Shown here: positions 1,223 to 54,693 of the stretch, in pieces
How the letters are laid out: each line of letters opens with the position of its first letter
How positions within the stretch are numbered: the first letter of the stretch is position 1
Notes under the pieces: model-generated
Seen by the model: the letters and a program-made list of their open reading frames with translations, nothing else
Databases searched by the model: none
What the model was told of the DNA's origin: nothing
Assembly (NCBI GenBank): GCA_023667045.1
Contig: JAMPAU010000002.1
Location: forward strand, 266,842 to 330,841
Length of the DNA stretch: 64,000 nucleotides
Direction: 5' to 3'
Source: Ruminococcus flavefaciens
Lineage (GTDB): Bacteria > Bacillota > Clostridia > Oscillospirales > Ruminococcaceae
Made by a program: the position numbers and the translations under genes

Positions 1223-1245
1223 AAATATGAAAGGAGTGCGATAAA

Positions 1246-39658: not shown

Positions 39659-40414
39659 ATGCTTGCAAAAAGAATAATCCCGTGTCTTGATGTACGCAAC
39701 GGCAAGGTAGTAAAGGGCGTTAATTTTGAGGGAGTGCGTGACGTTGGCGACCCTGTGGAGTGTGCCGAAGAATACAACAGACAGGGTGCTGATGAGATTG
39801 TATTCTATGATATAACCGCATCTTTCGAGGGACGTGGCGTATTTCTCGACGTTGTAAGGGAAACCGCTAAAAAAGTATTCGTACCGCTCACTGTCGGCGG
39901 TGGCATAAAGACAGTTGATGACATACGTGAAACACTCCGTGCAGGTGCGGATAAAGTTTCTGTGAACTCGCAAGCCGTAAAGAATCCTCAGCTTATACAT
40001 GACGGTGCGGACATATTCGGCAGTCAGTGCATATGCGTTGGAATAGACGCTAAAAAAATTGCCGACCACAAGTGGACAGTCTACATTAACGGCGGTCGTG
40101 TTGATATGGGTCTTGATTTGATAGACTGGGTTCACCAGATTGAAAAGCTCGGAGCAGGTGAAATCTGTCTGAACTCCATTGACGCTGACGGCACTAAAAA
40201 TGGTTTTGACATCGAGATGCTGAAAGCTGTATGCGACAATTGCAGTATTCCGGTTATCGCAAGCGGTGGTGCAGGAAAGATAAACGACTTTGTGGAAGTC
40301 TTTGAAAAAACAGGTGCAACAGCAGCACTTGCCGCTTCGCTATTCCATTTCAGAGAACTTACCGTACAGGAAGTAAAATCATACTGCCATGACAGAAACA
40401 TTACAGTAAGGTGA
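39659..40414 (+). CDS. hisF: Imidazole glycerol phosphate synthase, cyclase subunit
   Basis: TIM-barrel partner of HisH, 251 aa. [18 protein letters not shown] near residue 6 carries catalytic Asp11. [16 protein letters not shown] near residue 31, [10 protein letters not shown] near residue 80, and [13 protein letters not shown] near residue 173 with the second Asp are present. Strong Shine-Dalgarno AAAGGAGG. Separated from hisA by four short unrelated genes. Confidence 0.97.
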
Positions 40415-40743
40415 AAACGCTGAATAAAATCTATCCGCTGATTTATGGTTTTTTCGGCAGTCTCGGATTTATATGCTGTATAAATATTCTGCTTAACTTT
40501 GACTATAAAGTTTCGGCACACCCATATGCACATCCATTCTGTCTGATAGCCGGAAGTCTTTCGCTTTTTATATGTATGGCGGTATTCTGTATTGACGTGA
40601 CGGCTTTTATAGACGAGGAAAGAAAAATACGTCGTTTTATGCGGACAATTGGCATAACTTTAATATCATTCATAGGCTGTGCATTTATGTGGTCGGAATT
40701 ATGGTCGGCGGTAAGCAGATTTTTACAGTACAAAGGGTGGTGA
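40411..40743 (+). CDS. Small membrane protein, 110 aa, unknown
   Basis: Three hydrophobic helices (about residues 8-28, 45-65 and 82-102) with a basic loop [12 protein letters not shown] between the last two. No family recognised. The GTG start overlaps the hisF stop (GTGA), so translation is coupled. Part of the pair of extra genes between hisF and hisI. Confidence 0.55.
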
Positions 40744-40747
40744 TAGT

Positions 40748-41152
40748 TTGGACATAGTCTACAAAGACACTCACGATTTCAGCCGTGAACAGCTTAAAGA
40801 TTTATTCCTGTCTGTTGAATGGTCTTCGGGGCATTATCCCGACAAACTCGTGACGGCAATGAAAAACTTTGAGACTGTATTTTCCGCATGGGACGGCGAT
40901 AAGCTTATAGGCATGATATGTGCCATGGACGACGGAATTATGACAGCATATATTCACTATCTGCTTGTAAATCCCGAATATCAAAACAAAAAAATAGGCA
41001 GGGAGCTTGTCAGAATGGCAAAGGAAAAATATGCTGACTATCTGAGAATCGTCGTGGTTGCATATGATTCTGAACTTGCTTTTTATGAAAAATGCGGTTT
41101 TAAAAAATCAGATAATGCAAGTCCGATGTTTATAACGTCATTATGGACTTAG
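40748..41152 (+). CDS. GNAT-family N-acetyltransferase
   Basis: 134 aa, small GCN5-type acetyltransferase. [20 protein letters not shown] near residue 69 is motif A, with the acetyl-CoA loop Q-x-x-x-I-G. [20 protein letters not shown] near residue 103 is the motif B region with the usual FYEKCGF. A TTG start after GGTGGTGATAG is likely. The substrate is not predictable. It sits between hisF and hisI; no direct link to histidine synthesis is known. Confidence 0.85.
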
Positions 41153-41165
41153 AAAGGAGATTGAA

Positions 41166-41513
41166 ATGATAAAAGTTAACTTAAACGACCTTGATAAATT
41201 TTTTGTCAAGGGTGAACTCATTCCGACTATCTGCTATGAAGTGAACACTAAAACCGTTCTTATGCTTGCATACATGAACAAGGAGAGCCTTAAAAAGACC
41301 CTTGAAACAGGCTATACATGGTTCTGGAGCAGGTCGAGGCAGGAATACTGGAACAAAGGTGCTACTTCCGGACATCTACAGAAAGTAATTTCCATTTACG
41401 GCGACTGCGACAATGACACGCTTTTAGTCAATGTCGAGCAGACGGGTGTTGCTTGCCATACCGGAAGCTATAGCTGTTTCTTTAATGAAATCTACAATAA
41501 CAAGGAGAATTAA
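41166..41513 (+). CDS. hisI: Phosphoribosyl-AMP cyclohydrolase
   Basis: Zinc hydrolase opening the adenine ring, 115 aa, stand-alone form. [20 protein letters not shown] near residue 36, [18 protein letters not shown] near residue 56, and [12 protein letters not shown] with [11 protein letters not shown] near residue 79 contain the metal-binding Asp and Cys residues. Shine-Dalgarno AAAGGAGA. hisE follows by one base, as a separate gene rather than the fusion found in many bacteria. Confidence 0.97.
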
Positions 41514-41514
41514 T

Positions 41515-41853
41515 ATGACTGTTTATGAAGAAATTTTTGAAGTAATCAAGGAAAGAAAAAAGCAGTACGAAAACGGTACATCTGCTGAAAATTCGTATAC
41601 CTGCTATCTTTTTGACAAGGGCGTTGACAAGATATGCAAGAAAGTAGGCGAGGAAGCAACAGAAACTGTAATCGCTGCAAAAAACGGAGACAACGACGAG
41701 TTGATGAACGAAATCAACGACTTACTGTATCATGTCATGGTACTCTGTGCAAATCAAGGTCTTGAATGGTCTGACGTTGAAAAGGTTCTTGATGAAAGAA
41801 ACGAAAAAATCGGCAACCTTAAAAAATTCCATGAGGTTGACAAAAACACGTGA
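41515..41853 (+). CDS. hisE: Phosphoribosyl-ATP pyrophosphohydrolase
   Basis: MazG-like helical pyrophosphatase, 112 aa. Start at 41515 (MTVYEEIFEV) with Shine-Dalgarno AAGGAGAA; the open frame running back to 41431 lies inside hisI and is not used. GVDKICKKVGEEATETVIAA near residue 38 and ELMNEINDLLYHVMVL near residue 62 give the acidic metal ligands. Stop overlaps the next gene (GTGA). Confidence 0.96.
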   Translation: MTVYEEIFEVIKERKKQYENGTSAENSYTCYLFDKGVDKICKKVGEEATETVIAAKNGDNDELMNEINDLLYHVMVLCANQGLEWSDVEKVLDERNEKIGNLKKFHEVDKNT

Positions 41854-42332
41854 TTTACAGGATTTCAAAGTACAATCCTAAAAGTTATTCTGACGAATGG
41901 ACTTCAGTTACAGATGTCGGCGATAAGCGTTATAATCTGACTATCGGTGAGTACTTAAGATATGAAGAACTATACATACAAAGTCTTATGACGGTAATCA
42001 ATGACGATATAAAAAGTATTGTCAGAATAGAGAATTTTGAAGAAATCCAAAAACGGACAGGAAGTTTTGCAGATAAATCCGTGATGAATATATATGAAAA
42101 AGACTATCAGAGCGGTATATATAAATCACTTTACAACGGTGTACATGAGTTTGAATACAGCGATATTCTGGCACTTGTGAAAATTATGCTGAGGGAAGAA
42201 GCATGGTTTGTGATTGTTACTGACCGATATAAAATTGATGTCGGATATGATTACTATATTCATATACATACAGAGGGATTTTTAAAGCCGGATAATCTGC
42301 CGGAAGGTATTTTCTTTGAAAGACAACTATAA
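41850..42332 (+). CDS. Hypothetical protein, 160 aa
   Basis: No family recognised. Soluble, rich in Tyr and acidic residues, beginning MIYRISKYNPKSYSDEWTS and ending in a strand-rich segment (WFVIVTDRYKIDVGYDYYIHI). The GTG start overlaps the hisE stop, so it is translationally coupled and ends the operon just before a strong terminator. The N-terminal pattern resembles small contact-system immunity proteins, but this is only an impression. Confidence 0.6.
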   Translation: MIYRISKYNPKSYSDEWTSVTDVGDKRYNLTIGEYLRYEELYIQSLMTVINDDIKSIVRIENFEEIQKRTGSFADKSVMNIYEKDYQSGIYKSLYNGVHEFEYSDILALVKIMLREEAWFVIVTDRYKIDVGYDYYIHIHTEGFLKPDNLPEGIFFERQL

Positions 42333-42339
42333 AAATATT

Positions 42340-42371
42340 GAGCGGGATTTTTTACGTCCTGCTCATTTTTT
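42340..42371 (+). terminator. Terminator of the histidine operon
   Basis: GAGCGGGAT pairs with GTCCTGCTC (with G-U pairs) around TTTTTAC and is followed by T6. The right-hand 21 bases are nearly identical to the terminator at 47865-47891. Confidence 0.85.
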
Positions 42372-42408
42372 GTACCATTAATGTTTTAGGCTGTATAAAT
42401 AAAAAAAC

Positions 42409-42437
42409 TTGATTTTGTTGTTATTTTCTGTTATAAT
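42409..42437 (+). promoter_or_regulatory. Promoter of the pectate lyase gene
   Basis: TTGATT, 17-base spacer, TATAAT, with Shine-Dalgarno CGGGAGG at 42455-42461. Confidence 0.75.
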
Positions 42438-42470
42438 ATCAGTATAATAAATATCGGGAGGTTATTAATT

Positions 42471-45002
42471 ATGAATCTGAAAAAAATAATAGCCGGAGTA
42501 ATGGCTGTTTGTTCGCTTGGCGTGGCAGTTCCGGCGGTAAGTTCTGCACCTGATGTAAATGCGGTCGGTAACGTCCTTGCATTTCCCGGAGCGGTCGGTG
42601 GCGGAAAGTATGCTACAGGCGGACGAGGCGGTGAAGTTTATCACGTCACCAACCTTAACGACAGCGGAGCAGGTTCATTCCGTGACGCTGTAAGCAAATC
42701 GGGGCGTATAGTTGTATTTGACGTAAGCGGTACTATCGAGCTGAAAAGTAACATTCTCTGCCAGAGCAACATCACCATTGCCGGACAGACAGCCCCTGGC
42801 GGTTCGGGAATAACTCTTAAAAACTATAAAATGGGTATGTCCGGCGATAATATAATATGCCGTTATATAAGTTCACGACCCGGACCGTATACTGCGACGA
42901 GTTCCGGCAACGATGCGTGGGGCGGTTCTAACGGTTCAAACTCAATAATTGACCACTGCTCAATGGGTTGGACAACCGACGAACAGTGGGGGCTTTATTC
43001 AAACAATATGAACTATACCGTACAGTATTCCGTGCTTGGTCCTGCTGATTCTTGGGGCGGTCACAAAAAGGGACTTCACGGTTTCGGAATGATGATGGGC
43101 AAGGGCAACCTCACCTTTGACCACAACCTCATAATACACAACGTTTCAAGAAATTTCAGGGGAAAAGTCGAGGGTACAAATACAGCGGATTTTACAAACA
43201 ACGTCATCTATGACTGGGGCTATCAGACAGCTTACGGCACTATCGGACATCTTAATTATGTAAACAATACTCTTAAAATGGGCAACTCCACAACAGGCGG
43301 AAAACACTATGTAAATGTTGATAGTTCCACAAAACCGGAAAACTTCAAAATTTACATTGACGGAAACAGGATTCTCAATAAAGACAATTCGGTTTATGAG
43401 ACTCCCACAAATGACAACTGGGCAGGCGTTGACGTTAAAGAATCTATCGGAATCACTAAAGACCAGCTTGTTTCAGATTCGCCTTTTCAGACTTTGATAA
43501 ACGGTGAAAATGTATCGTCTGTACAGGACGTTGAAAGTGCGGAAGATTCATATAATCACGTTATAAGCTATGCCGGAAACGGTATATCACCCGAAAAACG
43601 TACAGCTATAGACCTACAGTGTGCAGAAGAAACACTTAACGGCACAGGCTCATGTAGCGGTACAGCCTCGTATGATGACGCTACTGACGCTAACAAGGAA
43701 AATATTGACAAGTATCAGATTCAGTGCGGAGTGGTTTATGAATATCCGTCGGCAGTTCTCACAAAGGAAATAACAGACAGCGACAATGACGGTATGCCGG
43801 ACGAATGGGAACTTGCAAGAGGTCTCGACCCGAATGACGCAAGCGACTATAAAGGCGATTACTGCGGACAGGGTTATATGAACATAGAATACTACATAAA
43901 TGATCTTACTGTTAATTCTTTTCCGGAGGGCGTTGTAACTCTCTCGCCCAAAACAACTATTGTAGAGCCAGTCCCTGCAAAGTCGGCATTTGAGACTATT
44001 GAGGCGGAAAGTTATACATCGCAAGACGGCATAAAAACTGAAGATTTATCAACGGGCGGACAGAATATAGGCTTTATTGAAAACGGCGATTATGCAGTAT
44101 ATAATAAGCTTGATTTCGGTGATGGTGCTAAGTCATTCGGCGGAAAGATTTCCGGCAATGCCTGTGCTATGGAGCTTTACCTTGACAACATGAACGGCAG
44201 TCCGGTTGCAACGGTAAATTTCAAAGGCACTTCCGGATTTTCTGACTATCAGGACGTTATGTTTAATATACCCGAAATTACAGATACTCACAATCTGTAT
44301 ATAAAGTTCACAGGCGGTGACGGCTACCTCATGAACGCCGACAGCTTTATTTTCGGCAAGGAAAGCGTATCTCTTAACGGTAAATATTTCACTCATGCTT
44401 CCGTACTGGAATCAGCTAATCCTAATTCATGGGAAATAGCAGAAAACGCACAGGTCGGCTCTCTGATTTTCGGTGACCGTGATTTTACTATTGCGACAAT
44501 TCCGGAATGCCTGAAAGGTGCTGAGATAATGAAAACTGCCTGTGACGCAAAAAGCGTTACACAGAGAAATACTCTTGTATTCACGACAGGAGCAGACGCT
44601 GATATATACGTTGGTGTTGATACAAGAGTAGAAAAAACTCCAGAGTTCCTTGACGGCTGGACAAAGACAGACGAAACATTTACATCTTCAAATGATGTTA
44701 CTTTCGTGCTTTACAAAAGAACTTTCCAGAAAATGAAATCTGTAGTAATCGGCTATAACGGACAGTCTGCAAACTGCGTGAACTTTACATTATTCGCACA
44801 GCCTCATACGGCAACAGAACAGCTTAAAGGCGACATTAACTCAGACGGCAAGGTAAACGTTGCTGATTTGGTGCTTTTAAATAAACACATACTTGCCATA
44901 GATTCACTTACGGCAGAGCAGTGCAAAACAGCCGATTTGGCAGAGGACGGCAGAATTGATTCTTTTGATATGATCGAACTCAGAAAACTAGTATTAAATT
45001 AA
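42471..45002 (+). CDS. Secreted cellulosomal pectate lyase with CBM6-like module and dockerin
   Basis: 843 aa. A signal peptide (residues 1-31, ending around VSSAPDVNA) is followed by a right-handed beta-helix pectate-lyase domain (about 35-440): AVGGGKYATGGRGGEVYHV, ITIAGQTAPG, IIDHCSMGWTTDEQ and FDHNLIIHNVSRNFR. A calcium-loop-like DSDNDGMPDEWE lies near residue 438. A CBM6-like module (about 500-625, starting FETIEAESY) and a further beta-rich module (625-780) follow. The C-terminus is a type I dockerin with two calcium repeats, GDINSDGKVNVADLVLLNKH and EDGRIDSFDMIELRKL. The dockerin implies docking to a scaffoldin, and the enzyme should cut de-esterified pectin. Own promoter. Confidence 0.93.
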   Translation: MNLKKIIAGVMAVCSLGVAVPAVSSAPDVNAVGNVLAFPGAVGGGKYATGGRGGEVYHVTNLNDSGAGSFRDAVSKSGRIVVFDVSGTIELKSNILCQSNITIAGQTAPGGSGITLKNYKMGMSGDNIICRYISSRPGPYTATSSGNDAWGGSNGSNSIIDHCSMGWTTDEQWGLYSNNMNYTVQYSVLGPADSWGGHKKGLHGFGMMMGKGNLTFDHNLIIHNVSRNFRGKVEGTNTADFTNNVIYDWGYQTAYGTIGHLNYVNNTLKMGNSTTGGKHYVNVDSSTKPENFKIYIDGNRILNKDNSVYETPTNDNWAGVDVKESIGITKDQLVSDSPFQTLINGENVSSVQDVESAEDSYNHVISYAGNGISPEKRTAIDLQCAEETLNGTGSCSGTASYDDATDANKENIDKYQIQCGVVYEYPSAVLTKEITDSDNDGMPDEWELARGLDPNDASDYKGDYCGQGYMNIEYYINDLTVNSFPEGVVTLSPKTTIVEPVPAKSAFETIEAESYTSQDGIKTEDLSTGGQNIGFIENGDYAVYNKLDFGDGAKSFGGKISGNACAMELYLDNMNGSPVATVNFKGTSGFSDYQDVMFNIPEITDTHNLYIKFTGGDGYLMNADSFIFGKESVSLNGKYFTHASVLESANPNSWEIAENAQVGSLIFGDRDFTIATIPECLKGAEIMKTACDAKSVTQRNTLVFTTGADADIYVGVDTRVEKTPEFLDGWTKTDETFTSSNDVTFVLYKRTFQKMKSVVIGYNGQSANCVNFTLFAQPHTATEQLKGDINSDGKVNVADLVLLNKHILAIDSLTAEQCKTADLAEDGRIDSFDMIELRKLVLN

Positions 45003-45105
45003 AAATAAAAGAATATTACAGTATATTTTTTAATGGTCTTTGAATTATTTATTTCTTTTTTAACAGAAAATTTATCATATTTTTACTACTTTTTTCTGTT
45101 AACTA
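45003..45105 (+). other. AT-rich spacer with inverted repeat ahead of the peptide gene
   Basis: TTAACAGAAAA (45060-45070) and TTTTCTGTTAA (45092-45102) form a perfect 11-bp inverted repeat with a 21-base spacer. It ends four bases before the -35 of the next promoter. It could be an operator or the weak terminator of the pectate lyase gene. Confidence 0.5.
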
Positions 45106-45134
45106 TTGACTTTTTTTGTTGAATAGTGTATAAT
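45106..45134 (+). promoter_or_regulatory. Strong promoter of the peptide precursor gene
   Basis: TTGACT, exactly 17 bases, TATAAT. The roughly 100-base leader holds a hairpin (GCGTTAAA 45185-45192 with TTTAACGC 45198-45205) and ends in the perfect Shine-Dalgarno AAAGGAGGT (45226-45234). Confidence 0.85.
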
Positions 45135-45242
45135 AATGTTAAAGAAATTTCAATAAAGATAATATTTTATAAAGCTGTATAAGAGCGTTAAAATCAATTT
45201 AACGCCTTTGCGTATAATATTACTGAAAGGAGGTCGTTAACA

Positions 45243-45428
45243 ATGAAGAAGATGTCAAAGTCTGAGCAGATGCAGGCAAACGGCGGTAAGTATTACAAGA
45301 TTTATTGCAGAGGTTGTGGCAGAAGCATTTGCGGTGGTACTAAGTGGGCTGCTGAAGTCATGAACGGTATTCACGTTTCTGGCAGAAAATCATGCTACGG
45401 CAAGTCTGTATATATCGGTTGGTGCTAA
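45243..45428 (+). CDS. Double-glycine-leader Cys-rich secreted peptide precursor (bacteriocin-like)
   Basis: 61 aa. The first 15 residues form a short C39-type leader: MSKSEQMQANGG places Met, Ser, Glu and the final GG at -12, -11, -8 and -2/-1 as in class II bacteriocins. The predicted core is 46 residues, basic and aromatic, with five cysteines at core positions 7, 10, 15, 36 and 46 (YCRGCGRSIC near its start, SCYGKS and GWC at the end). A second GG follows core Cys15. The exporter with a C39 peptidase is 110 bases downstream. No lanthionine, radical-SAM or cyclodehydratase gene is adjacent, so disulfides or metal binding are the likeliest features. I do not recognise the core family. Antimicrobial, signalling or other roles are all possible. 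Confidence 0.75.
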   Translation: MKKMSKSEQMQANGGKYYKIYCRGCGRSICGGTKWAAEVMNGIHVSGRKSCYGKSVYIGWC

Positions 45429-45458
45429 TGCACTGCTCTAAGTAATACGGATTTTTTT

Positions 45459-45505
45459 AAGAGTCAGAAGCTGTGCTGATAAGTGCGGTTTCTGATTCTT
45501 TTTTT
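45459..45505 (+). terminator. Internal terminator between precursor and exporter
   Basis: AAGAGTCAGAA (45459-45469) pairs with TTCTGATTCTT (45490-45500) with one G-U pair and runs into T7. Partial readthrough would give abundant precursor and less exporter mRNA, as expected for a peptide-export operon. Confidence 0.8.
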
Positions 45506-45538
45506 ATCACAAAACAAACTAAAAAACAGAGGTGCTTT

Positions 45539-47857
45539 ATGCGTTCAAAATATATACACATCAGACAGCATGATGAAAAAGACTGCGGAGCAGCTTGTCT
45601 TTCAATGATTGCATCGTATTATAAACTAAAACTGCCAATATCAAAATACCGTGAGCTGATTCAGGTGGATAATCAGGGAGCAAATATATACGGCATTGTA
45701 ACGGGTGCAGAACAAATCGGATTTACGGCTGACGCTCTTGAGGGTTCTCTACAGGAACTTGAAGAAGAAATGCAGGAAAACCAATCTTTAAATCAGCCAT
45801 TTATTGCAAGAATAGTCAATCAAGAAGGATATGAGCATTTTATTGTGGTTTTCAGCTATGATATACAGCATGACCGACTTATTATAGGCGACCCCGCTAA
45901 AATGAAAATATCGGAAATGTCAAGAAAGGATTTTGAGGAATGCTGGCAGGAGCAGGTGATAACATTTCAGCCGAATGAAAACTTTAAAGCTGTGGACGAA
46001 TCAAAAGGTATTCTTTCAAGATTTTTCAGCTATATTCTTGTTCAGAAAAAAATGCTTGCTATGATTTTTGTTATATCGCTTATTGTATCGGGTATAAATA
46101 TGTTCGGAACAGTTATTTTTCAGTACGTTATTGACAGTGCCACCCATGTGTCAGAATCGGCAATGACAGAAGAAGAAATAGCTGAATATGAGGGTGAAGA
46201 ACATGACCACGACCATGAGCATGAAGAAGATGATGAACATGAATCAGACGAATCAAGTTTCTATGGAAAAGCAATGGCAAAAATAAGCGTTATATTCAGT
46301 AATTTAAATGTTGTCTGCATTGCAATTCTCGGTCTGTATCTTCTGAAAAGTATCATCAGAATTTTCCGTAGCCGTATGCTTGCTGTAATGACAAAAAATA
46401 TAAACGTTCCTTTGCTTACTAATTTTTACAATCACATGATGGACTTACCGGCAGGATTTTTTGGTACAAGAAAGTCGGGCGAACTTATTTCAAGATTCCA
46501 GAATGCCGACGAAATCAAAAACGCTATTTCTTCTGCCACGCTTACAGTTATGCTTGACAGTCTCATGGCTGTTATCTTTGGAGTTATTCTGTTTTTCATA
46601 AGTAAAACGCTGTTCTTCATAACTCTTGTTACAATATTTATTTACGGCGTAGTGATGTTTATTTTCAAGAACCCCATAAGAAATATAAATTATGAAATAA
46701 TGGAAAACGACGCTCATCTTACTTCATATCTTAAAGAAACTATTGAGGGCGTGAATACTGTCAAGGCTAATCAGTATAATTCTGTTGTAAAAGAAAGGCT
46801 GAAAGAACTTGTCAACAGAAAAGAAGACAAATGTATAGAGGGTTCTGTAATCGGCGGAATACAGTATGCAATTGTTGAGTTTATCAGTTCTGCTTCTGTT
46901 GTCGCATTGCTGTGGACAGGTGCATATCTCTGCACAGTAAATACAATTACCATAGGAGCGTTGTTTACATTCTACTATATGATTGATTATTTTCTTAGTC
47001 CTGTCAGCAATCTGATAGACCTCCAACCACAGCTACAGACTGCATTAGTTGCCGCAGAACGTCTTAACGATATTCTTGATACTGAAACTGAAAAAGATAC
47101 AGGGGATAAAGATTTCTGCAACGGCGACATCTGCATTGAAAATCTTACATTTCGTTACGGAAACAGAAACGATGTTTTAAAAAATATCAGTATGTCTGTT
47201 AAGAAAGGTCAGAAAGTTGCCGTTATAGGTGAAAGTGGCTGTGGTAAAACAACGCTTGCAAAACTGCTGATGCGTTTCTATGAACAGAATCAAGGCAGTA
47301 TTATGATAGATAATACTGATATATCTGAATTTTCATTTGAAAGCTACAGAAATCATGTATCATATATATCTCAGGATATGTTTCTTTTTTCCGATACTGT
47401 CCGTAATAATCTGCTGATTGGAAATGATAATGTTACAGACGAGGAATTTTATAACATCTGTGAACTTTGCTGTATTGACGATTTTGTACAGGAAATGCCT
47501 ATGGAATATGATACAATGCTTGAAGAATCCGGTACAAATTTATCTGTCGGTCAGAGACAGAGGCTGATAATTGCAAGGGCATTGCTGAGGAAGCCGGATA
47601 TTCTGATTATGGACGAGGCAACCAGCAATCTTGATTCCGTTACAGAATCATGCATACAGAATGCAATAAACGTTTTAGGTGAAAATATGACCTGTATAAT
47701 TATTGCCCACAGACTTTCGACAATAAAAAACTGTGACAATATTTGCGTTATGCAGGACGGTACAATAAAGGAATGCGGAACTCATGACGAACTGATACAG
47801 CTTGGCGGACTTTATTATAATTATTACAGTCAGCAGTCATCGGATTCTAATTTATAA
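45539..47857 (+). CDS. C39-peptidase-containing ABC exporter (PCAT)
   Basis: 772 aa. The start at 45539 follows AGAGGTG; the longer frame from 45473 lies in the terminator. The N-terminal C39 domain (1-150) has the triad Cys16 in DEKDCGAAC, His100 in GYEHF and Asp118 in GDP, so it can cut double-glycine leaders. A six-helix membrane domain spans about 165-500. The ATPase has Walker A GESGCGKTT, signature LSVGQRQR and Walker B ILIMDEATS. Between helices 1 and 2 lies an acidic His-rich loop (residues 203-241; His at 222, 224, 226, 228 and 234) on the predicted outer face, unusual for this family and suggestive of Zn or another metal. It most likely matures and exports the upstream 61-aa peptide. 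Confidence 0.92.
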   Translation: MRSKYIHIRQHDEKDCGAACLSMIASYYKLKLPISKYRELIQVDNQGANIYGIVTGAEQIGFTADALEGSLQELEEEMQENQSLNQPFIARIVNQEGYEHFIVVFSYDIQHDRLIIGDPAKMKISEMSRKDFEECWQEQVITFQPNENFKAVDESKGILSRFFSYILVQKKMLAMIFVISLIVSGINMFGTVIFQYVIDSATHVSESAMTEEEIAEYEGEEHDHDHEHEEDDEHESDESSFYGKAMAKISVIFSNLNVVCIAILGLYLLKSIIRIFRSRMLAVMTKNINVPLLTNFYNHMMDLPAGFFGTRKSGELISRFQNADEIKNAISSATLTVMLDSLMAVIFGVILFFISKTLFFITLVTIFIYGVVMFIFKNPIRNINYEIMENDAHLTSYLKETIEGVNTVKANQYNSVVKERLKELVNRKEDKCIEGSVIGGIQYAIVEFISSASVVALLWTGAYLCTVNTITIGALFTFYYMIDYFLSPVSNLIDLQPQLQTALVAAERLNDILDTETEKDTGDKDFCNGDICIENLTFRYGNRNDVLKNISMSVKKGQKVAVIGESGCGKTTLAKLLMRFYEQNQGSIMIDNTDISEFSFESYRNHVSYISQDMFLFSDTVRNNLLIGNDNVTDEEFYNICELCCIDDFVQEMPMEYDTMLEESGTNLSVGQRQRLIIARALLRKPDILIMDEATSNLDSVTESCIQNAINVLGENMTCIIIAHRLSTIKNCDNICVMQDGTIKECGTHDELIQLGGLYYNYYSQQSSDSNL

Positions 47858-47864
47858 AAAATAA

Positions 47865-47898
47865 TGAGCAGGATTTTTTACGTCCTGCTCAGTTTTTT
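47865..47898. terminator. Bidirectional terminator after the exporter
   Basis: TGAGCAGGA (47865-47873) pairs perfectly with TCCTGCTCA (47883-47891) around TTTTTTACG, with an A-rich left flank and T7 on the right. It also ends the leftward thyX-U32 transcript. Nearly a copy of the hairpin at 42340-42371. Confidence 0.88.
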
Positions 47899-49115
47899 TA
47901 TTTTGTTTCCTTGCGTATAACTGTACCCGTTGGGAAAGTCAAATCAGACTTAAAGGAAAATTTCATCATAGCGTGATTAGCTGTCTGTATTTCCTCGCCT
48001 TTTTCGTCATAGAGAGTATCAAGAGTTAAAGTCACAGGCTTTGCGGACGGTGCGAGCAGTTCAACTGTATCACCTGCAAAGAATCTGTTACGCTGTGTAC
48101 AGTAAACAGTACCGTTTTCGCACTTTTCAACAACCGCCACAACGTCGTAATTCCGTATGTAACCGCTGTTTTCATAGTACTGTGAGTTTTCGGGAGTGCC
48201 GAAGAAAAAACCGTTGCAGTATTTTCTGTGGCTCACCTTGTAAACCTCGTCTCTAATCCAGTCGGGAAGTATGAAATTATCGGGATTCTTATAATATTCA
48301 TCAACTGCCATTCTGTAGGCGTTAGTGACTACTGTCACATAATATGCAGACTTTGCACGTCCCTCAATTTTAAGGCTGTTAACTCCGGCTTTTGCGAGCT
48401 TATCAATGTGTTCAATCATACACATATCTTTAGCATTAAGAATGTAAGTTCCTTTTTCGTCCTCAAATATCGGGAAAAACTCATTAGGTCTTTTTTCCTC
48501 AACAAGATGATAACCCCACCTGCACGGCTGTGCGCATTCGCCACGGTTAGCGTCACGGTTTACAAGATACTGTGAAAGAAGACATCTTCCGGAAAAAGAT
48601 ACGCACATAGCACCATGTACAAAAGTTTCTATTTCCATATCGGGACTTGTTTTAGCACGGATTTCAGCTATTTCTTCGAGTGTAAGTTCACGTGCGAGAA
48701 CTATTCTTTTAGCACCCATGTTGTATAACTCACGTGCAGTGATGTAATTCACAACGCCCGTCTGTGTAGAAATGTGTATTTCCATATCCGGAGCGTATTT
48801 CTTGATTAAAGCAAGCAACCCTATATCAGCCACTATGAGTGCGTCAACTTCAGCTTCCACTGCCTCACGTACAAACTGCTCAAACTGTGGGATTTCATTG
48901 TTTCTGGGCAGAGTATTGCAGGTAAGATAGACTTTTATTCCCTTTGCATGAGCCGACTGTACGGCGGTTACAAGCTGGTCAAAGTCAAAATTAAGAGGAG
49001 AAGACCTCATGCCGAATTGTTTTCTTCCGAGATATACAGCGTCAGCACCGTAATTTATACAGGCGTTGAAACGTTCTTCATCGCCTGCCGGAGCAAGAAC
49101 TTCAAGCTTATTCAT
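47898..49115 (-). CDS. U32-family protein, TrhP/YrrO-like (tRNA hydroxylation)
   Basis: 405 aa. Start at MNKLEVLAPAGD (49115), preceded by AGAGAGG inside mltG; the gene overlaps mltG by eight bases. EVLAPAGDEERFNACINYGA, AVYLGRKQFGMR near residue 27, the signature FVHGAMCVSFSGRCLLSQY near residue 165, and ANRGECAQPCRWGY near residue 190 mark U32 proteins and the cysteines that bind iron-sulfur. Neighbouring mltG recalls the Bacillus yrrL-yrrM-yrrN-yrrO order, where the U32 members make 5-hydroxyuridine at tRNA position 34. A peptidase role was the older annotation. No second U32 gene is adjacent. Confidence 0.88.
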   Translation of the reverse strand: MNKLEVLAPAGDEERFNACINYGADAVYLGRKQFGMRSSPLNFDFDQLVTAVQSAHAKGIKVYLTCNTLPRNNEIPQFEQFVREAVEAEVDALIVADIGLLALIKKYAPDMEIHISTQTGVVNYITARELYNMGAKRIVLARELTLEEIAEIRAKTSPDMEIETFVHGAMCVSFSGRCLLSQYLVNRDANRGECAQPCRWGYHLVEEKRPNEFFPIFEDEKGTYILNAKDMCMIEHIDKLAKAGVNSLKIEGRAKSAYYVTVVTNAYRMAVDEYYKNPDNFILPDWIRDEVYKVSHRKYCNGFFFGTPENSQYYENSGYIRNYDVVAVVEKCENGTVYCTQRNRFFAGDTVELLAPSAKPVTLTLDTLYDEKGEEIQTANHAMMKFSFKSDLTFPTGTVIRKETK

Positions 49116-50424
49116 CATTTTCAGCCTCTCTTTCGGCTTCACGTGATGCAATAATGTATTCGTCAACCTGATTTTCTACCATTGCCTGATATTCTTCATG
49201 TTCGCCGAGAGTTTCAGAGAAGTATGTCTGACCTGTGTAGATATTTGCGATAAAGTAGAAGTAGTTACTTTCTACATTTTCAAGAACAGCGTCGATAGCC
49301 TCAATACCCGGATTACATATAGCTCCCGGAGGAAGTCCAGGACTTACATATGTATCATAGGAATCAACAATAGTTTTGTCGTATACGTCCATTCTTGTTC
49401 TTACAAACTCAGAGTAGTTTGAAGTAGGGTCTGACTGGAGCAGAGGGAATACGTCGGCATTTCTTAATCTGTTCCAAAAAACAGAGGCGACATAAAGCAT
49501 TGTGTCGGTATTGGCTGCCTCTTTCTGAACGACTGAGGCGAAAGTTATAAGCTGGTCGAGTGAGAGACCGAGACTTTCCATTTTTGCATATCTTTCATCA
49601 GTCATCTTGTTATCGAAGTTAAGATAGATTTTCTGGCATACCTGCTCCGGACTCATATTTTCATAGAAGAAATACGTATCGGGGAATAAATAACCCTCCA
49701 TACGATAGAATTTAAGAGAAGTATCTGTAGGAAGTCTGTTTTCAAAATCAAATCCGAGACCGCCGGAATTGAAATAGAAAATAAATTCATCAGCAGAGCA
49801 TACGCTGTTTTGTTCAAGAATCTGTGCTGCCTCAAATATTGTACAGCCCTCTGGGAAAGTAACTTCAACTGTTTCCTGTTCTTCTTCAGTAATGCTTGTA
49901 AGTTCAGTTATTATAGTTTCATAAGCCATATTAGGACGTACAAAATGTTCTCCGGCTATATAGCTTGAATCAGACTTTCTTAGACGGCTGAAAAGCTGGA
50001 AACATTCGGGAGATTTTATAATTCCTTCGTCCTTGAGGAGTTCAGAGATTTCAATCGTTGAAGCGCCCTCCGGAATAACAATCAGCTTTGTACTGTCGCT
50101 TTTGCCGATACCAAGCATATCACGTCCGAAAGCTATGATAACAAGCGAAAGGCATATTGACACAGCGAATATAAAAGTAGTGAGAATAATAATTCCGGGC
50201 AGACGACTGCGTTTTTTCTTTTTCTTCTTTTTTCTTTTTCTTGGTACTTCCCGAATCGGCTCGGGTTCAGGCTCATAATATTCCTCCGGTTCATAGCTGT
50301 CTTCCTGCTGTGAATAATCGTCGTAATCGTCAATCAGTGGGACAGGTTCGCTGAACTGTTCTTCCGGAATATTTTCGTCATTAATGTCTTCATTCAGAAT
50401 TTCGTTGTCTTCTTTGTTCTGCAT
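49108..50424 (-). CDS. mltG: Endolytic murein transglycosylase MltG
   Basis: 438 aa. A long acidic cytoplasmic N-terminus (1-65) is followed by a Lys/Arg cluster (KRKKKKKKKR), one membrane helix (about 75-97), a LysM-like segment (VIPEGASTIEISELLKDEGI near residue 118) and the YceG catalytic domain, with the active Glu in ASVVQKEAANTD near residue 295 and SDPTSNYSEF later. It cuts nascent glycan strands. It overlaps the cyclo-ligase gene at its 5' end and the U32 gene at its 3' end. The highly acidic cytoplasmic tail is longer than in E. coli. Confidence 0.94.
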   Translation of the reverse strand: MQNKEDNEILNEDINDENIPEEQFSEPVPLIDDYDDYSQQEDSYEPEEYYEPEPEPIREVPRKRKKKKKKKRSRLPGIIILTTFIFAVSICLSLVIIAFGRDMLGIGKSDSTKLIVIPEGASTIEISELLKDEGIIKSPECFQLFSRLRKSDSSYIAGEHFVRPNMAYETIITELTSITEEEQETVEVTFPEGCTIFEAAQILEQNSVCSADEFIFYFNSGGLGFDFENRLPTDTSLKFYRMEGYLFPDTYFFYENMSPEQVCQKIYLNFDNKMTDERYAKMESLGLSLDQLITFASVVQKEAANTDTMLYVASVFWNRLRNADVFPLLQSDPTSNYSEFVRTRMDVYDKTIVDSYDTYVSPGLPPGAICNPGIEAIDAVLENVESNYFYFIANIYTGQTYFSETLGEHEEYQAMVENQVDEYIIASREAEREAENDE

Positions 50425-50968
50425 GACAGAGTATCATCCTTTCTGGTGTAACTATATAATCAGCCTGTATATCATGAGACATGACAGGCAGATTTTCTGT
50501 AATAATTTCCTCATAGGAGAGGGCGGTTTTATGTATCTGCGGATATTTCTGTAAAAACCTGTCGTAATAGCCTCCGCCATAACCAAGCCTTGCACCGTCG
50601 GGAGTAAAAGCAAGTCCGGGCAGTACGCACAGGGTATTTTCAGTTATTGCAGGCTGGGGCAGGGAACTGTCCGGCTCATATATGCCATACATACCTTTAT
50701 GGAGTTCGCTGAGGGATTCTACGATGTGAAATGTCATAACGCCGTCTTTGTGCGATACAGGAAAAGCAACGGTACATTTCCCGAAAATATCTCCGGCAAT
50801 GGATAGAGTATCGATTTCAGAGCCGAAAGAAGCATATAAAAGTACAGTATCAGTATTTCTGAGAGTTTTAAGAAAATTATTCCGGATAATAATATCTTTT
50901 CCTGTCTTGTCCGGAATATTTTTTCTTATCTCTGAAAATTTTTTCCGCAGTAATTTTTTATCTTCCAT
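50390..50968 (-). CDS. 5-formyltetrahydrofolate cyclo-ligase
   Basis: 192 aa. Converts 5-formyl-THF to 5,10-methenyl-THF with ATP. The N-terminal KKLLRKKFSEIRKNIPD and the signature GARLGYGGGYYDRFL near residue 130 are typical of MTHFS/YgfA. It overlaps mltG by 35 bases and follows the DJ-1 gene by two bases. Being in the same transcript as thyX fits a folate theme, since ThyX consumes methylene-THF. Confidence 0.93.
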   Translation of the reverse strand: MEDKKLLRKKFSEIRKNIPDKTGKDIIIRNNFLKTLRNTDTVLLYASFGSEIDTLSIAGDIFGKCTVAFPVSHKDGVMTFHIVESLSELHKGMYGIYEPDSSLPQPAITENTLCVLPGLAFTPDGARLGYGGGYYDRFLQKYPQIHKTALSYEEIITENLPVMSHDIQADYIVTPERMILCHAEQRRQRNSE

Positions 50969-50970
50969 AA

Positions 50971-51513
50971 TTAATCGCAGAGAATAGAGGCACGCTGTTT
51001 TCTGCTTTCTTCTTCAGAGACAGCTTTTTCAACGAGTTTCAGACCAAATTCAATTGCAACGCCTGCACCACGTGCAGTAATAAAAATACCGTCTTCTGCA
51101 ACTGCACCGTCGCCGATTACAGCACCCTCTAACTGACTTTCAAAACCAGTATAGCAGACAGCCTTTTTACCTCTGAGCAGACCCTTGTGACCGAGAATTG
51201 ACGGAGCTGCACAGATAGCACCTATAAACCTGTTGTTCTGTATACAGTAGTCGATAGCTTTCTGTACGCAGTCAGACTTTTCAAGGTTGAGAGTGCCGGG
51301 CATACCGCCGGGAAGTACAATCATTTCGAGGTTGCCGTCAAGGGTTATTTCCTCTGCTGTAGTATCTGCAACAACAGGTATGCCGTGCGAACCCTTTATA
51401 GTCTGACCGCCCACACCGACAGTAACCACTTTCTTTCCGGAACGTCTGAGCAGGTCAACGGGTGCTAAGGCTTCAGTTTCTTCAAAGCCCTCTGCAAGAA
51501 AAACATAAATCAT
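50971..51513 (-). CDS. DJ-1/PfpI family protein
   Basis: 180 aa, a single DJ-1 domain. EGFEETEALAPVDLLRR near residue 8 holds the conserved Glu. The nucleophile elbow is GAICAAPSILG near residue 97 (Cys about 100), and VLPGGMPGTLNL lies near residue 66. Members act as glyoxalases or deglycases or as redox-sensing proteins; which applies here is not visible. Shine-Dalgarno AAAGGAC. Fifteen bases follow the DUF2156 gene. Confidence 0.9.
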   Translation of the reverse strand: MIYVFLAEGFEETEALAPVDLLRRSGKKVVTVGVGGQTIKGSHGIPVVADTTAEEITLDGNLEMIVLPGGMPGTLNLEKSDCVQKAIDYCIQNNRFIGAICAAPSILGHKGLLRGKKAVCYTGFESQLEGAVIGDGAVAEDGIFITARGAGVAIEFGLKLVEKAVSEEESRKQRASILCD

Positions 51514-51528
51514 AATAAAAAAGTCCTT

Positions 51529-52410
51529 TCATTTGAAATTTATAATATATTTTTTGAGAAGAAAAGCAGGGTGATAGGAGAGTTTGGCTTTACGCAGACC
51601 CTCTATTCCCAAGTCTTCCTCACGATTGACATAATGGTAATCCCGACAGGCAGAAGACACAAACAGATTATTTATTGCCGTATATATTCCGGAAAAATTC
51701 CTGTCTGCCTTTTCAGTATGTACACAAAAAGTTTCAGAATTAAGTCGCTCGCCTATGGTCACGGCAACAACTTTTCCGCCTATGCGTATAATACCGCCCG
51801 AAAGACCGAGTTTGTCAAAATAGCTGAAATAGGTGTTTATTGCGTATTGTTCTGCAACAGAAGAATAATCCTGATATTTGTTATTATAGTCTTCAGTGCA
51901 GAAAGAAATACAGTCGTCAAAATCCTTTTCGGAAATCATGGAAAACTCATAGTCAAGAGACCGGAAATGTTTCAGATGATTTCTTTTTGAGTGATATTTT
52001 TTTCCGGAAAGTCTGGTAAGGTCTGACGTAAGATATATATAGTCTGAACTGTCACGGTCGTATTCAACTGTAAATTCTTCTGGAAAGAGTTCACTGAAAA
52101 TGGGCAGATATTTTTCTGTCACTCCGATAATCTTCAAAGGAACACCTAAAGAGTAAGTATGTTTTTTAAGTTCCGTAAAAATCTCCCTGTAATCGCCTTT
52201 TCCGGACGGAAAAACAAAATAGGGGGTATTTTCAGCAGTCTGTGAGCATACTATGTAGAAGTCTTTATAGAATGATATTTTTGAATCGGCGAGACGTTTC
52301 CAAGCCATATTGTTTGCAAAAGTATATTCACAGCCCATGAAGTCTGATTCCGCAAGACATCTGTTTATATGTTCCTTGTCTGATATGTCAATATCCCTAA
52401 AATCAAGCAT
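51529..52410 (-). CDS. DUF2156 protein (lysyl-PG-synthetase-like GNAT fold)
   Basis: 293 aa. The ATG at 52410 was preferred because AAAGGCG is eleven bases upstream. The sequence matches the DUF2156 domain, related to the catalytic half of MprF and FemX aminoacyltransferases: FANNMAWKRLADSKISFYKD near residue 36, KYHSKRNHLKHFRSLDYEFS near residue 137, and a C-terminal HTEKADRNFSGIYTAINNLF followed by NREEDLGIEGLRKAKLSYHP. Soluble, without the MprF flippase. Stand-alone members are uncharacterised. It overlaps thyX. Confidence 0.85.
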   Translation of the reverse strand: MLDFRDIDISDKEHINRCLAESDFMGCEYTFANNMAWKRLADSKISFYKDFYIVCSQTAENTPYFVFPSGKGDYREIFTELKKHTYSLGVPLKIIGVTEKYLPIFSELFPEEFTVEYDRDSSDYIYLTSDLTRLSGKKYHSKRNHLKHFRSLDYEFSMISEKDFDDCISFCTEDYNNKYQDYSSVAEQYAINTYFSYFDKLGLSGGIIRIGGKVVAVTIGERLNSETFCVHTEKADRNFSGIYTAINNLFVSSACRDYHYVNREEDLGIEGLRKAKLSYHPAFLLKKYIINFK

Positions 52411-53185
52411 TGCCGTCATCGCCTTTTAGATTGCTGAAATATTCTCTCACCTGTGATATTTTACCGCAAGTCATTTTACCCTCCGGACATTTCCCCTCTG
52501 AAACGCACGACGGACCAGCATGACGGAAAATATCTGGAGCGACTTCAAGACAGATTTTAAGCATTTCATCAGCAACGGCACGTATTTCCCACTGAGCCCT
52601 GTTACAGCACCTGTGGCGGAAGAAGTTAAACAGCGAGCGTGCGTTCATTGTGACGACAATTTTAGTCTCACAGGCATTCGGCAGTATAAATCTTGCGTCT
52701 TCGTTGGCGGTTTTGCGTGCTTTGGAGAGGGCGGTTTTCTCGTCAAGACCGTTCTGCATGAGATTCTTTTTATGATATTCTGTGAGCAGGTCTGCAATTC
52801 TGCTGTAGCTTTTGGAAATTTCCTCAATAATCCTGATATATTCTTCCTCAGCCTCCGGAACTTCCTCTACAGCCGGAGGAGTGACGAACTCAAAGCCGTT
52901 TTCATTTACATACCGCTGGCTTTTCTGTGAGTACGAGGCTATCCGGTGGCGGACAAGCTGATGTGAGCAGGCACGTGAAATCCCCTCTATGCCGAATGTA
53001 AAAGAGATATGTTCCATAACACTTTCATGACCGACGGAGACAAGCATTTCAATGAAGCTTTTAGTTTTTTCTTCCGTGAGACCGTCTCTCAGAGAGCCTA
53101 TGTCGCTGTCTGAATAGCACAGCTTTCCGGCAGTAGCAACGAGTTTTTCGGGTTCGGGAGTATGTGATATAAGGGTTACTTTCAT
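52403..53185 (-). CDS. thyX: Flavin-dependent thymidylate synthase
   Basis: 260 aa. Makes dTMP from dUMP using FAD, NADPH and methylene-THF. The diagnostic RHRIASYSQKSQRY (ThyX motif RHRxxSxxxxSxRY) is at about residues 80-93, HESVMEHISFTFG just before it, and SLFNFFRHRCCNRAQWEIR near residue 185 carries the FAD- and dUMP-binding Arg residues. First gene of a six-gene leftward run. Confidence 0.96.
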   Translation of the reverse strand: MKVTLISHTPEPEKLVATAGKLCYSDSDIGSLRDGLTEEKTKSFIEMLVSVGHESVMEHISFTFGIEGISRACSHQLVRHRIASYSQKSQRYVNENGFEFVTPPAVEEVPEAEEEYIRIIEEISKSYSRIADLLTEYHKKNLMQNGLDEKTALSKARKTANEDARFILPNACETKIVVTMNARSLFNFFRHRCCNRAQWEIRAVADEMLKICLEVAPDIFRHAGPSCVSEGKCPEGKMTCGKISQVREYFSNLKGDDGNA

Positions 53186-53221
53186 ATTAAGACCTCCGCT
53201 TATGAGAATACATATATTCTT

Positions 53222-53250
53222 ATTTTACCATTTCCGGAGTTATAAGTCAA
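53222..53250 (-). promoter_or_regulatory. Promoter of the thyX operon
   Basis: Minus strand: TTGACT, 17-base spacer, TAAAAT. The start has Shine-Dalgarno CGGAGG. Confidence 0.75.
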
Positions 53251-53330
53251 GGCAGGTACGGAAATAAATTAAGATAATATTTTTAAAAAATAAAAAATGT
53301 GAAAGAATGAAAAAATTTTCAAATGGGTAT

Positions 53331-53359
53331 GGACATTTGAATAAAAAAGTTGTATAATA
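53331..53359 (+). promoter_or_regulatory. Promoter of the PrsA-like lipoprotein gene
   Basis: TGGACA, 17-base spacer, TATAAT, 38 bases before the start, which has Shine-Dalgarno ATGGAGGAA. Confidence 0.75.
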
Positions 53360-53397
53360 AATTAGTATCTGTAAATTTTAATGGAGGAATGTTTAAA

Positions 53398-54693
53398 ATG
53401 ACAAAATTCAATAAGCTCGTGGCGGCGGCGGTATCTTTTGCACTTGGTGTGACTGCTGTCGGCTGTACTCCCACAATAGGCAAGGGTACTGAAATGGCTA
53501 TGACTGCCGACGGCTATGATGTAAGCTCCGGTCTTTTTATCTTCTATACTATCCGTGCATATGAAGACGCTGTTAGTATTATTTCTGAAAAGAACGGCAC
53601 AGAGCCTACTGTAAAGGAAGTAAAAAACTCACATATTGATAATCTTGAGGCTGAAGAATGGATTCAGGACAAGGCAACGGAATACTGTATGAATATTGCC
53701 GCTATTGAAAATGAATTTAACAAGATAGGCGGTAAGCTTACAGATGAGGAACTCTCTGAAATTGAAACAATAGCAGACAGTCAGATTGACCCAGAGGGTA
53801 CTGATATTTACTCTAAAAACGGCGTGGGCAAGGAATCACTGAAAAAGGTAGTAAGTGCTACCGGAAGCGGAAACAATTATTTCGGAGAATATGAATATAT
53901 GCAGAAATGCATATTTGAACATTATTACGGATTTGACGGCGAAAAAGGCTGTTCAGAAGAAGAACTCAAAGACTATTTTGATGAAAACTTCGCAAGAGTA
54001 AAGTATATCTCAATCAGCATGACAGATGAAGAAGGCGAATCCCTCAGCGACGACGAAAAGAGAGCTTTACGCCGTAAAGCTGAAGACTATGCAAGAGAAA
54101 TCAATGGCGAAAAAGACAACATGGATAAAATGTTCAAGATGAACGAAATGCAGGAAGACTATGATGAGTATATTTCCACACAGACTACTTCCGCAGATGA
54201 AGAAGAAACTACCACCACTACTACTACCACAACAACTACTACTGATACTGACGAAACTCAGACTACCACTACTACAAATCCATATGAAAATGAACGTCTC
54301 GTACAGAGATACACAACTACCACTACTGACGATACAGAAGACGATTCTGAAACAACTACCACAACTGCTGAAGAAACTGATTCTGAAAAGGCAGACAGAG
54401 AATACAAGCAGTTTTTATTTGATGAGATTGAAATGAACAAGGCTACAGTCTATGAATATGACGAAGATACTCTTTATGTCGTAATCAGAGGAGACCTAAG
54501 AGAACGTATGACAGAAGATGACTACTGGTCTGAAGACTATATATACAGTCTCCAGTTGCTCAGATATAATGATGATTTCGTTGACTATATGGAGGGTCTT
54601 GCTAAAAATTTAGTTCCTGAAAAGAATGATTCTTCATTCAGAAGATACGCTCCTTTCAAGCTTGACCTCTCATCACTCGAACCAACAGAATAA
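53398..54693 (+). CDS. PrsA/SurA-like foldase lipoprotein with Thr-rich insert
   Basis: 431 aa. The ATG at 53398 was chosen for its Shine-Dalgarno; the signal peptide then ends in the lipobox TAVGC near residue 24, so it is a lipoprotein. Residues 25-200 have the helical SurA_N/PrsA chaperone pattern with a conserved-looking EEELKDYFDENFARVKYISI. That segment normally leads into a parvulin PPIase domain, but here it is split by an acidic Thr-rich stretch (about residues 262-335, Thr runs at 54216-54280 and 54310-54365), after which the C-terminal helical part resumes. Prolyl isomerase activity is therefore doubtful. Inferred role: folding of exported proteins. Confidence 0.75.
   Translation: MTKFNKLVAAAVSFALGVTAVGCTPTIGKGTEMAMTADGYDVSSGLFIFYTIRAYEDAVSIISEKNGTEPTVKEVKNSHIDNLEAEEWIQDKATEYCMNIAAIENEFNKIGGKLTDEELSEIETIADSQIDPEGTDIYSKNGVGKESLKKVVSATGSGNNYFGEYEYMQKCIFEHYYGFDGEKGCSEEELKDYFDENFARVKYISISMTDEEGESLSDDEKRALRRKAEDYAREINGEKDNMDKMFKMNEMQEDYDEYISTQTTSADEEETTTTTTTTTTTTDTDETQTTTTTNPYENERLVQRYTTTTTDDTEDDSETTTTTAEETDSEKADREYKQFLFDEIEMNKATVYEYDEDTLYVVIRGDLRERMTEDDYWSEDYIYSLQLLRYNDDFVDYMEGLAKNLVPEKNDSSFRRYAPFKLDLSSLEPTE

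Follow-up and report, generated by a model that had tools for sequence, protein, structure and literature searches.

We posit that Ruminococcus flavefaciens probably uses a two-gene cassette to produce and export a miniprotein derived from zinc fingers, which may be loaded with zinc as it leaves the cell. The cassette lies within the stretch of 64,000 nucleotides analysed here (the window), and consists of a precursor gene with a double-glycine (GG) leader followed by a peptidase-containing ABC exporter (PCAT) (Table 1). The 61-residue open reading frame (ORF) of the original prediction, with its 15-residue GG leader and basic 46-residue core with five cysteines, was confirmed in the sequence: in precursor numbering, the core cysteines are residues 22, 25, 30, 51, and 61, His44 is the sole histidine, and the core has a pI of 9.5 and a net charge of +7. 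By comparison with its relatives, the precursor is a real gene, because homologues 89-90% identical to it adjoin exporters 88-89% identical to that of the window in two other genomes. Evolutionarily, the leader has a dN of 0 in all three pairs formed by the window and these two close relatives, and the core has a dN/dS of ~0.10-0.15 for the relatives against the window (0.09/0.62 and 0.07/0.72), with 0.05/0.12 between both relatives.

Table 1 Features of the precursor and exporter locus, in positions of the window.
Feature	Position	Strand	Basis or remark
Promoter-like TTGACT-17-TATAAT	45106-45134	+	11/12 consensus positions
5' UTR inverted repeat GCGTTAAA-loop-TTTAACGC	45185..45205	+	Read in sequence
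Shine-Dalgarno AGGAGG	45228-45233	+	9 nt before ATG
Precursor ORF, 61 aa	45243-45428	+	Translation of window
Double-glycine leader, 15 residues	45243..45287	+	GG end; alignment of 19 peptides
Core peptide, 46 residues + stop	45288..45428	+	Likely metal ligands C22, C25, H44, one of C30/C51/C61
Terminator-like stem between precursor and exporter, possible attenuator	45459..45500	+	19 pairs, then T run
Peptidase-containing ABC exporter (PCAT), 772 aa	45539-47857	+	Pfam, NCBIfam
C39 peptidase domain, Cys16/His100/Asp118	45554..45979	+	Pfam, alignment
TM1-TM2 loop insert	46145..46270	+	Exporter alignment
Acidic His-rich stretch of loop (EGEEHDHDHEHEEDDEHE)	46190-46243	+	Within TM1-TM2 insert
ABC ATPase domain	47177..47626	+	Pfam
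Terminator-like stem after exporter	47865..47891	+	Stem scan

Aligning the window peptide with its relatives (19 peptides in all) left M1, M4, A12, N13, G14, G15, C22, C25, and H44 invariant (window numbering), with M4 at position -12 and A12 at position -4 relative to the cut site. As a reference, the peptidase LahT recognises leader positions -12, -7, and -4 (PMC6363468); position -7 is Gln in the window peptide and Met in the 15 C2H2-type sister peptides described below. Database searches with the window peptide found nothing above chance in Pfam and no matching NCBIfam model, bacteriocin models included, and its core matched none of the solved structures in the PDB. A mobile origin was considered and rejected: there was no phage match at E up to 1, the sole plasmid match (E 0.7, 36% identity) was disregarded, and viral contigs held no confirmed relative when queried with the peptide, two peptide alignments, and the exporter alignment. 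A C2H2-type sister peptide likewise had no plasmid match at E up to 0.01.

The near-consensus promoter and the Shine-Dalgarno sequence that had been claimed upstream of the precursor are both present. A promoter scan of the region returned 16 such sites against 12.3 expected, and this site stands out by its score and place only; its hexamers are common to the window and one relative's locus (L003), and are not found in another (L002). The stretch of the 5' UTR inverted repeat is largely, not fully, conserved in these two loci, and that of the stem between the two genes is conserved in both. In Rfam, nothing at the locus reached an E below 0.9.

The exporter scored above the cut-offs for Peptidase_C39, ABC_membrane, and ABC_tran, as well as that of TIGR01193, and its best solved relative was 4ry2, a bacteriocin-type ABC transporter (E 6.9e-174). 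With Cys16, His100, and Asp118 invariant in an alignment of six exporters, the earlier identification of a PCAT with an intact C39 triad is borne out. In a 28-row tree, a branch supported at 100/99 had all six on the same side, and the long-branch warnings concerned rows other than the six. Elsewhere in the window's own genome (G000), contig 65 (L043) carries a second C39 exporter that is split in two ORFs (1630-2448 and 261-1646, minus strand), close to a GG-leader ORF of 94 aa (3507-3791).

Within the genus, the exporter search scored eight candidates per genome and exceeded 800 bits in six of 125 genomes (G000, G116, G026, G117, G108, and G133), with the next best at 520. The original prediction had hinged on precursor homologues lying next to exporters elsewhere, and a GG-leader precursor adjoins the exporter in 6/6 genomes of this clade, so that the prediction was not refuted. 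The window, G026, G116, and G117 have one precursor upstream of the exporter; in G108 and G133 the GG-leader peptides lie downstream, ten in the former, each with an AAGGAG-type ribosome site upstream, and five in the latter. Precursor and exporter can be regarded as a cassette because the stretch upstream of the 5' UTR and the neighbouring genes differ among close relatives. A profile of the 19 peptides matched in full length the same six genomes only, out of 125; since it had been made from these six, the information lies in no other genome having matched in full. Short matches (E 0.003-0.008) occurred in three other genomes and at a second site of G026. The latter (contig 83) is a short out-of-frame stretch inside other genes and was judged to be chance. 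Two weak hits of another search, in G017 and G001, were rejected once they had been read.

Two further observations concern the distribution of such loci. A record labelled Alistipes senegalensis (JAMPEF010000042.1; L003 / L041) carries the cassette as it stands in G116 of the window's genus, and is probably a mislabelled or misbinned metagenome-assembled genome. Among the loci read, other C39 exporters of the genus, with plain loops, lie near larger GG-leader precursors with zinc-ribbon-like cysteine pairs (L150, L151, L155, and L147, from genomes G066, G112, G007, and G079): G066, G112, and G007 have a CxxC and a later CxxxxC, and the 125-aa peptide of G079 has several CxxC. GG-leader cargo with metal-type cysteine sets may, by these motifs, extend beyond the family studied here, and given this CxxC-bearing cargo our claim is limited to the CxxC...H type accompanied by the exporter loop.

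The zinc-finger relation comes from the sister peptides of the two arrays. All 15 peptides of G108 and G133 read C-x2-C-x12-H-x3-7-H, compared with 18 of 19,995 shuffled cores, with the classical second spacing of x3-5 being exceeded in some of them. A profile of the 15 sister cores with their leaders removed ranked C2H2 fingers first, at an E of about 1e-4. The one sister searched singly against the PDB (L039:7187-7342), picked for having the best Pfam score, gave an E of 1e-10 with multi-finger C2H2 proteins (2i13) and of 4.5e-4 with the single finger 2eow. Among the eight of 15 sisters scanned against zf-C2H2 (PF00096), the best score was 20.2 bits, under the cut-off of 25.2.

The window peptide itself departs from the C-x2-C-x12-H-x3-5-H spacing, having C22 and C25, an insert with C30 downstream of this CxxC, and H44 as its sole histidine. 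An hhalign comparison of its subfamily with the C2H2 subfamily gave 97.4% and E 1.5e-11 over residues 1-29 only, that is, over the leader and the CxxC, and we read the window core, from these alignments, as a divergent branch of the peptide family. AlphaFold2 (three sequences) placed strands at 18-22 and 28-30 around the CxxC, followed by a helix and then a strand, the helix covering residues 34-40 in the precursor model and core residues 19-31 in the core model (equal to 34-46, with His44 within). These window models are of low confidence (pLDDT 57 and 60, pTM about 0.3), so the beta-beta-alpha order is only a hint.

A second line of evidence comes from the exporter. Between TM1 and TM2, all six exporters of the clade have an insert in which Asp, Glu, and His abound, with Cys as well in three of them. 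ABC exporter topology puts the TM1-TM2 loop outside the cell, and the insert is accordingly predicted to be extracellular. Per 25 loop residues, the six exporters have 15-24 H/D/E/C, compared with at most 7 in 18 others of the genus, a measure that was picked after the loop had been seen; His alone overlaps between the groups (2-5 versus 0-3), and the contrast thus depends on the acidic residues as well as on His. The comparison drew on 32 C39 matches in 31 of 125 genus genomes, the 18 others being those with the loop region covered, with one truncated, five unparsed, and two unlisted exporters left out; in four of the unparsed ones (G033, G125, G103, and G107) no such H/D/E/C cluster was visible. 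The loop is possibly metal-binding.

Peptides of a similar kind were also found beyond the genus. Three GG peptides, found in G827 (from another family of the class) and in G244 (from the same order), read C-x2-C-x13-H-x3-H, and in G488 (the same family) a CxxC...H GG peptide lies beside a C39 exporter; we regard the first two genomes as holding clear relatives and G488 a possible one. In the peptides of G244 and G827 (L077 2488-2965, minus strand; L076 4052-4249), this C-x2-C-x13-H-x3-H head is joined to a tail of hydrophobic residues, a layout that would be compatible with membrane activity. The exporters of G827 and G244 have a short plain loop and that of G488 an acidic loop with a single His. 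Since CxxC...H GG peptides lie beside plain-loop exporters in the former two, the loop is not required for such cargo, and zinc-finger-type GG cargo is wider in distribution than the loop. These searches covered 394 genomes of the order (two successive profiles, part of the candidates scored), 391 of the class (exporter alignment at E 1e-200, two candidates scored per genome), 9 and 70 of the families of G244 and G827, respectively, and 299 of the phylum (candidates scored in part). Among the candidates scored in the order, family, and phylum searches, from which relatives may have escaped, there was no clear relative besides G827 and G244; the searches of the G827 family and the phylum gave weak matches in L161, L162, and L163. 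A pattern sift of the weak order matches (loci of ~2-3 kb) found no further GG leader with a CxxC beside a C39 exporter; it overlooked the G488 peptide, which was recognised by reading the locus, and others may have escaped likewise.

Among the ORFs of positions 40000-54000 no modification enzyme was recognised by eye, in agreement with what had been predicted, and the same held for the ORFs seen, in part, at the loci of five relatives. A lanthipeptide or sactipeptide system was rejected, as no enzyme of that kind could be recognised by eye among the listed ORFs. As the original prediction had it, inspection by eye of the ORFs between 40000 and 54000, of which the upstream neighbour alone was family-searched, likewise revealed no immunity gene, but three other loci carry candidate ABC transporters. 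The G133 array is followed by a PmtA-like ATPase (246.7 bits, cut-off 350) and two permeases, the G117 exporter by a DevA/MacB-like ATPase (212.7 bits, cut-off 295.8) and an FtsX permease, and 6-7 kb from the G116 pair a permease lies with an ATPase of the gallidermin-protection-like type (220.8 bits, cut-off 309.75). These candidates, all under their cut-offs, could protect the producer. The upstream neighbour in the window (42471-45002) codes for a protein of 843 aa whose CBM6 and type I dockerin domains are of the kind found in enzymes of cellulosomes, and the downstream neighbours are presumably housekeeping genes (U32-type peptidase, MltG-like, and others). Near both C2H2-type arrays lie ECF sigma factor genes (L039 2689-3249 and L040 2766-3338), each followed by a large uncharacterised ORF; these sigma factors are possible regulators.

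Mechanistically, the near-consensus promoter would drive expression of the precursor, while the attenuator-like stem after it probably holds the exporter at a lower level. By family knowledge, the C39 domain would cut after Gly14-Gly15 and the ABC part would then export the 46-residue core, and the co-occurrence of peptide and exporter in 6/6 genomes supports export of the core by this exporter. Outside the cell, C22, C25, H44, and one more cysteine would bind a metal, most likely Zn2+, round which the core would fold, a ligation that we infer because the sister peptides are C2H2-type, and the His/Asp/Glu-rich TM1-TM2 loop probably gathers zinc where the chain leaves the exporter and assists in loading it. 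The original prediction had allowed for either disulfides or metal; metal is now preferred and disulfides are less favoured, because of the C2H2-type sisters and of the metal-binding-like loop in the exporter clade, a feature that the original prediction had not mentioned. Its proposed zinc site, the CxxC with Cys15 and His29 of the core (C30 and H44), is backed in part: C22, C25, and H44 are invariant in the 19 peptides, C30 only in the window's own three-peptide subfamily; the fourth ligand is likely to be one of C30, C51, or C61. Overall, the original prediction holds in its main lines but was incomplete. Functionally, within the zinc-finger-miniprotein explanation, we tentatively favour competition through a small, basic, unmodified, bacteriocin-like peptide as the likeliest role, because the cores are small, basic, apparently unmodified, and varied among copies, and because three other loci have candidate protective ABC transporters.

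The evidence also bears on other explanations. The window peptide could be an unmodified bacteriocin stabilised by a pair of disulfides (such as C30 with C61 and either C22 or C25 with C51), with no role for zinc and the zinc-finger ancestry lost in its subfamily, where all five cysteines are conserved; the lost C2H2 spacing of its core and the absence of a PDB match would fit with this. We consider it improbable, as C22, C25, and H44 are retained in every aligned peptide, the exporter keeps its loop, the number of cysteines is odd, and inspection of the listed neighbours by eye showed no oxidase gene. A different use of metal, in which the peptides would be exported empty as zincophores or metal buffers to capture scarce zinc while the loop holds zinc at the cell surface, would agree with the conserved metal-ligand sets, the metal-binding-like loop, and the many divergent copies in two genomes. 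It nonetheless seems very unlikely: no uptake gene common to the loci was noticed by eye, the Rfam search at the locus gave no match better than that noted above, and a metallophore, it can be argued, needs no ten sequence-diverse copies.

We see just as slim a chance that the exported core is a signal perceived by the producer or by neighbouring cells. Signals do occur among the GG peptides that PCATs export (PMC7018657, PMC7595303), and the sigma factor genes near the G108 and G133 loci would be in keeping with such a role; yet no receptor or response regulator was recognised by eye beside the window locus, and copies that diverge as up to ten peptides in one genome speak against it. Basic cores of 46 residues are also long for PCAT-exported peptide signals.

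Returning to the exported zinc-finger-derived miniprotein, its place among known systems can be outlined by comparison. With PCAT-exported GG peptides (PCAT1, LahT, ComA, and class II bacteriocin exporters) it shares the leader, the cut site, the C39 triad, and the exporter architecture, whereas the cargo of the window family has a zinc-finger-type ligand set and its exporters a His/Asp/Glu-rich TM1-TM2 insert that is absent in the 18 other genus C39 exporters measured. The sisters resemble the classical C2H2 zinc finger (PF00096) in spacing and in their scores against solved C2H2 proteins, but they stand behind a GG leader in a bacterium, are single fingers, and score under the Pfam cut-off; the window peptide differs further by its longer insert, one His, and extra cysteines. 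Like unmodified class II bacteriocins, the window peptide is small and basic, with a GG leader, its own exporter, and no modification enzyme recognised; unlike them, the pair is without a recognised immunity gene, has the zinc-finger-type ligand set, and yields no match of its peptide to an NCBIfam bacteriocin model. Lanthipeptide and sactipeptide systems have in common with the window locus a Cys-containing core behind a GG leader and a C39 exporter, though the window exporter lies apart in the tree from exporters tentatively labelled lanthipeptide-type by their neighbours.

The usual picture of C2H2 zinc fingers is one of intracellular, mostly eukaryotic proteins. Among the literature matches listed, represented by titles and the starts of abstracts, with bioRxiv and most subscription journals outside the search, none dealt with zinc-finger peptides that are exported or carry a GG leader. 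The word zinc is absent from the main text of a study of rumen bacteriocins (PMC13289728) and of a bacteriocin review (PMC7616364), and in PMC9372549 the sole mention of zinc fingers is in a reference. On our best reading, what is new here is the combination of zinc-finger-derived PCAT cargo with a metal-binding-like exporter loop.

A bolder proposal, doubtful as it stands, is that of a secretion system dedicated to zinc fingers, in which an exporter with a built-in metal-loading loop would release single-domain zinc-finger miniproteins, encoded in some genomes as arrays of up to ten different fingers; on leaving the exporter these would bind zinc, fold, and then target other cells. If true, this would add two things absent from the literature searched, an ABC exporter that loads metal and secreted zinc-finger effectors as a class. 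It would also make the metal-loading of cargo by an ABC exporter testable and provide small unmodified peptides with a new scaffold. Should the peptides be antimicrobial, the differences within the arrays at non-ligand positions would represent a natural library on a fixed fold. More broadly, zinc-finger arrays exported through a transporter that bears a metal-binding-like loop would link peptide secretion to metal handling.
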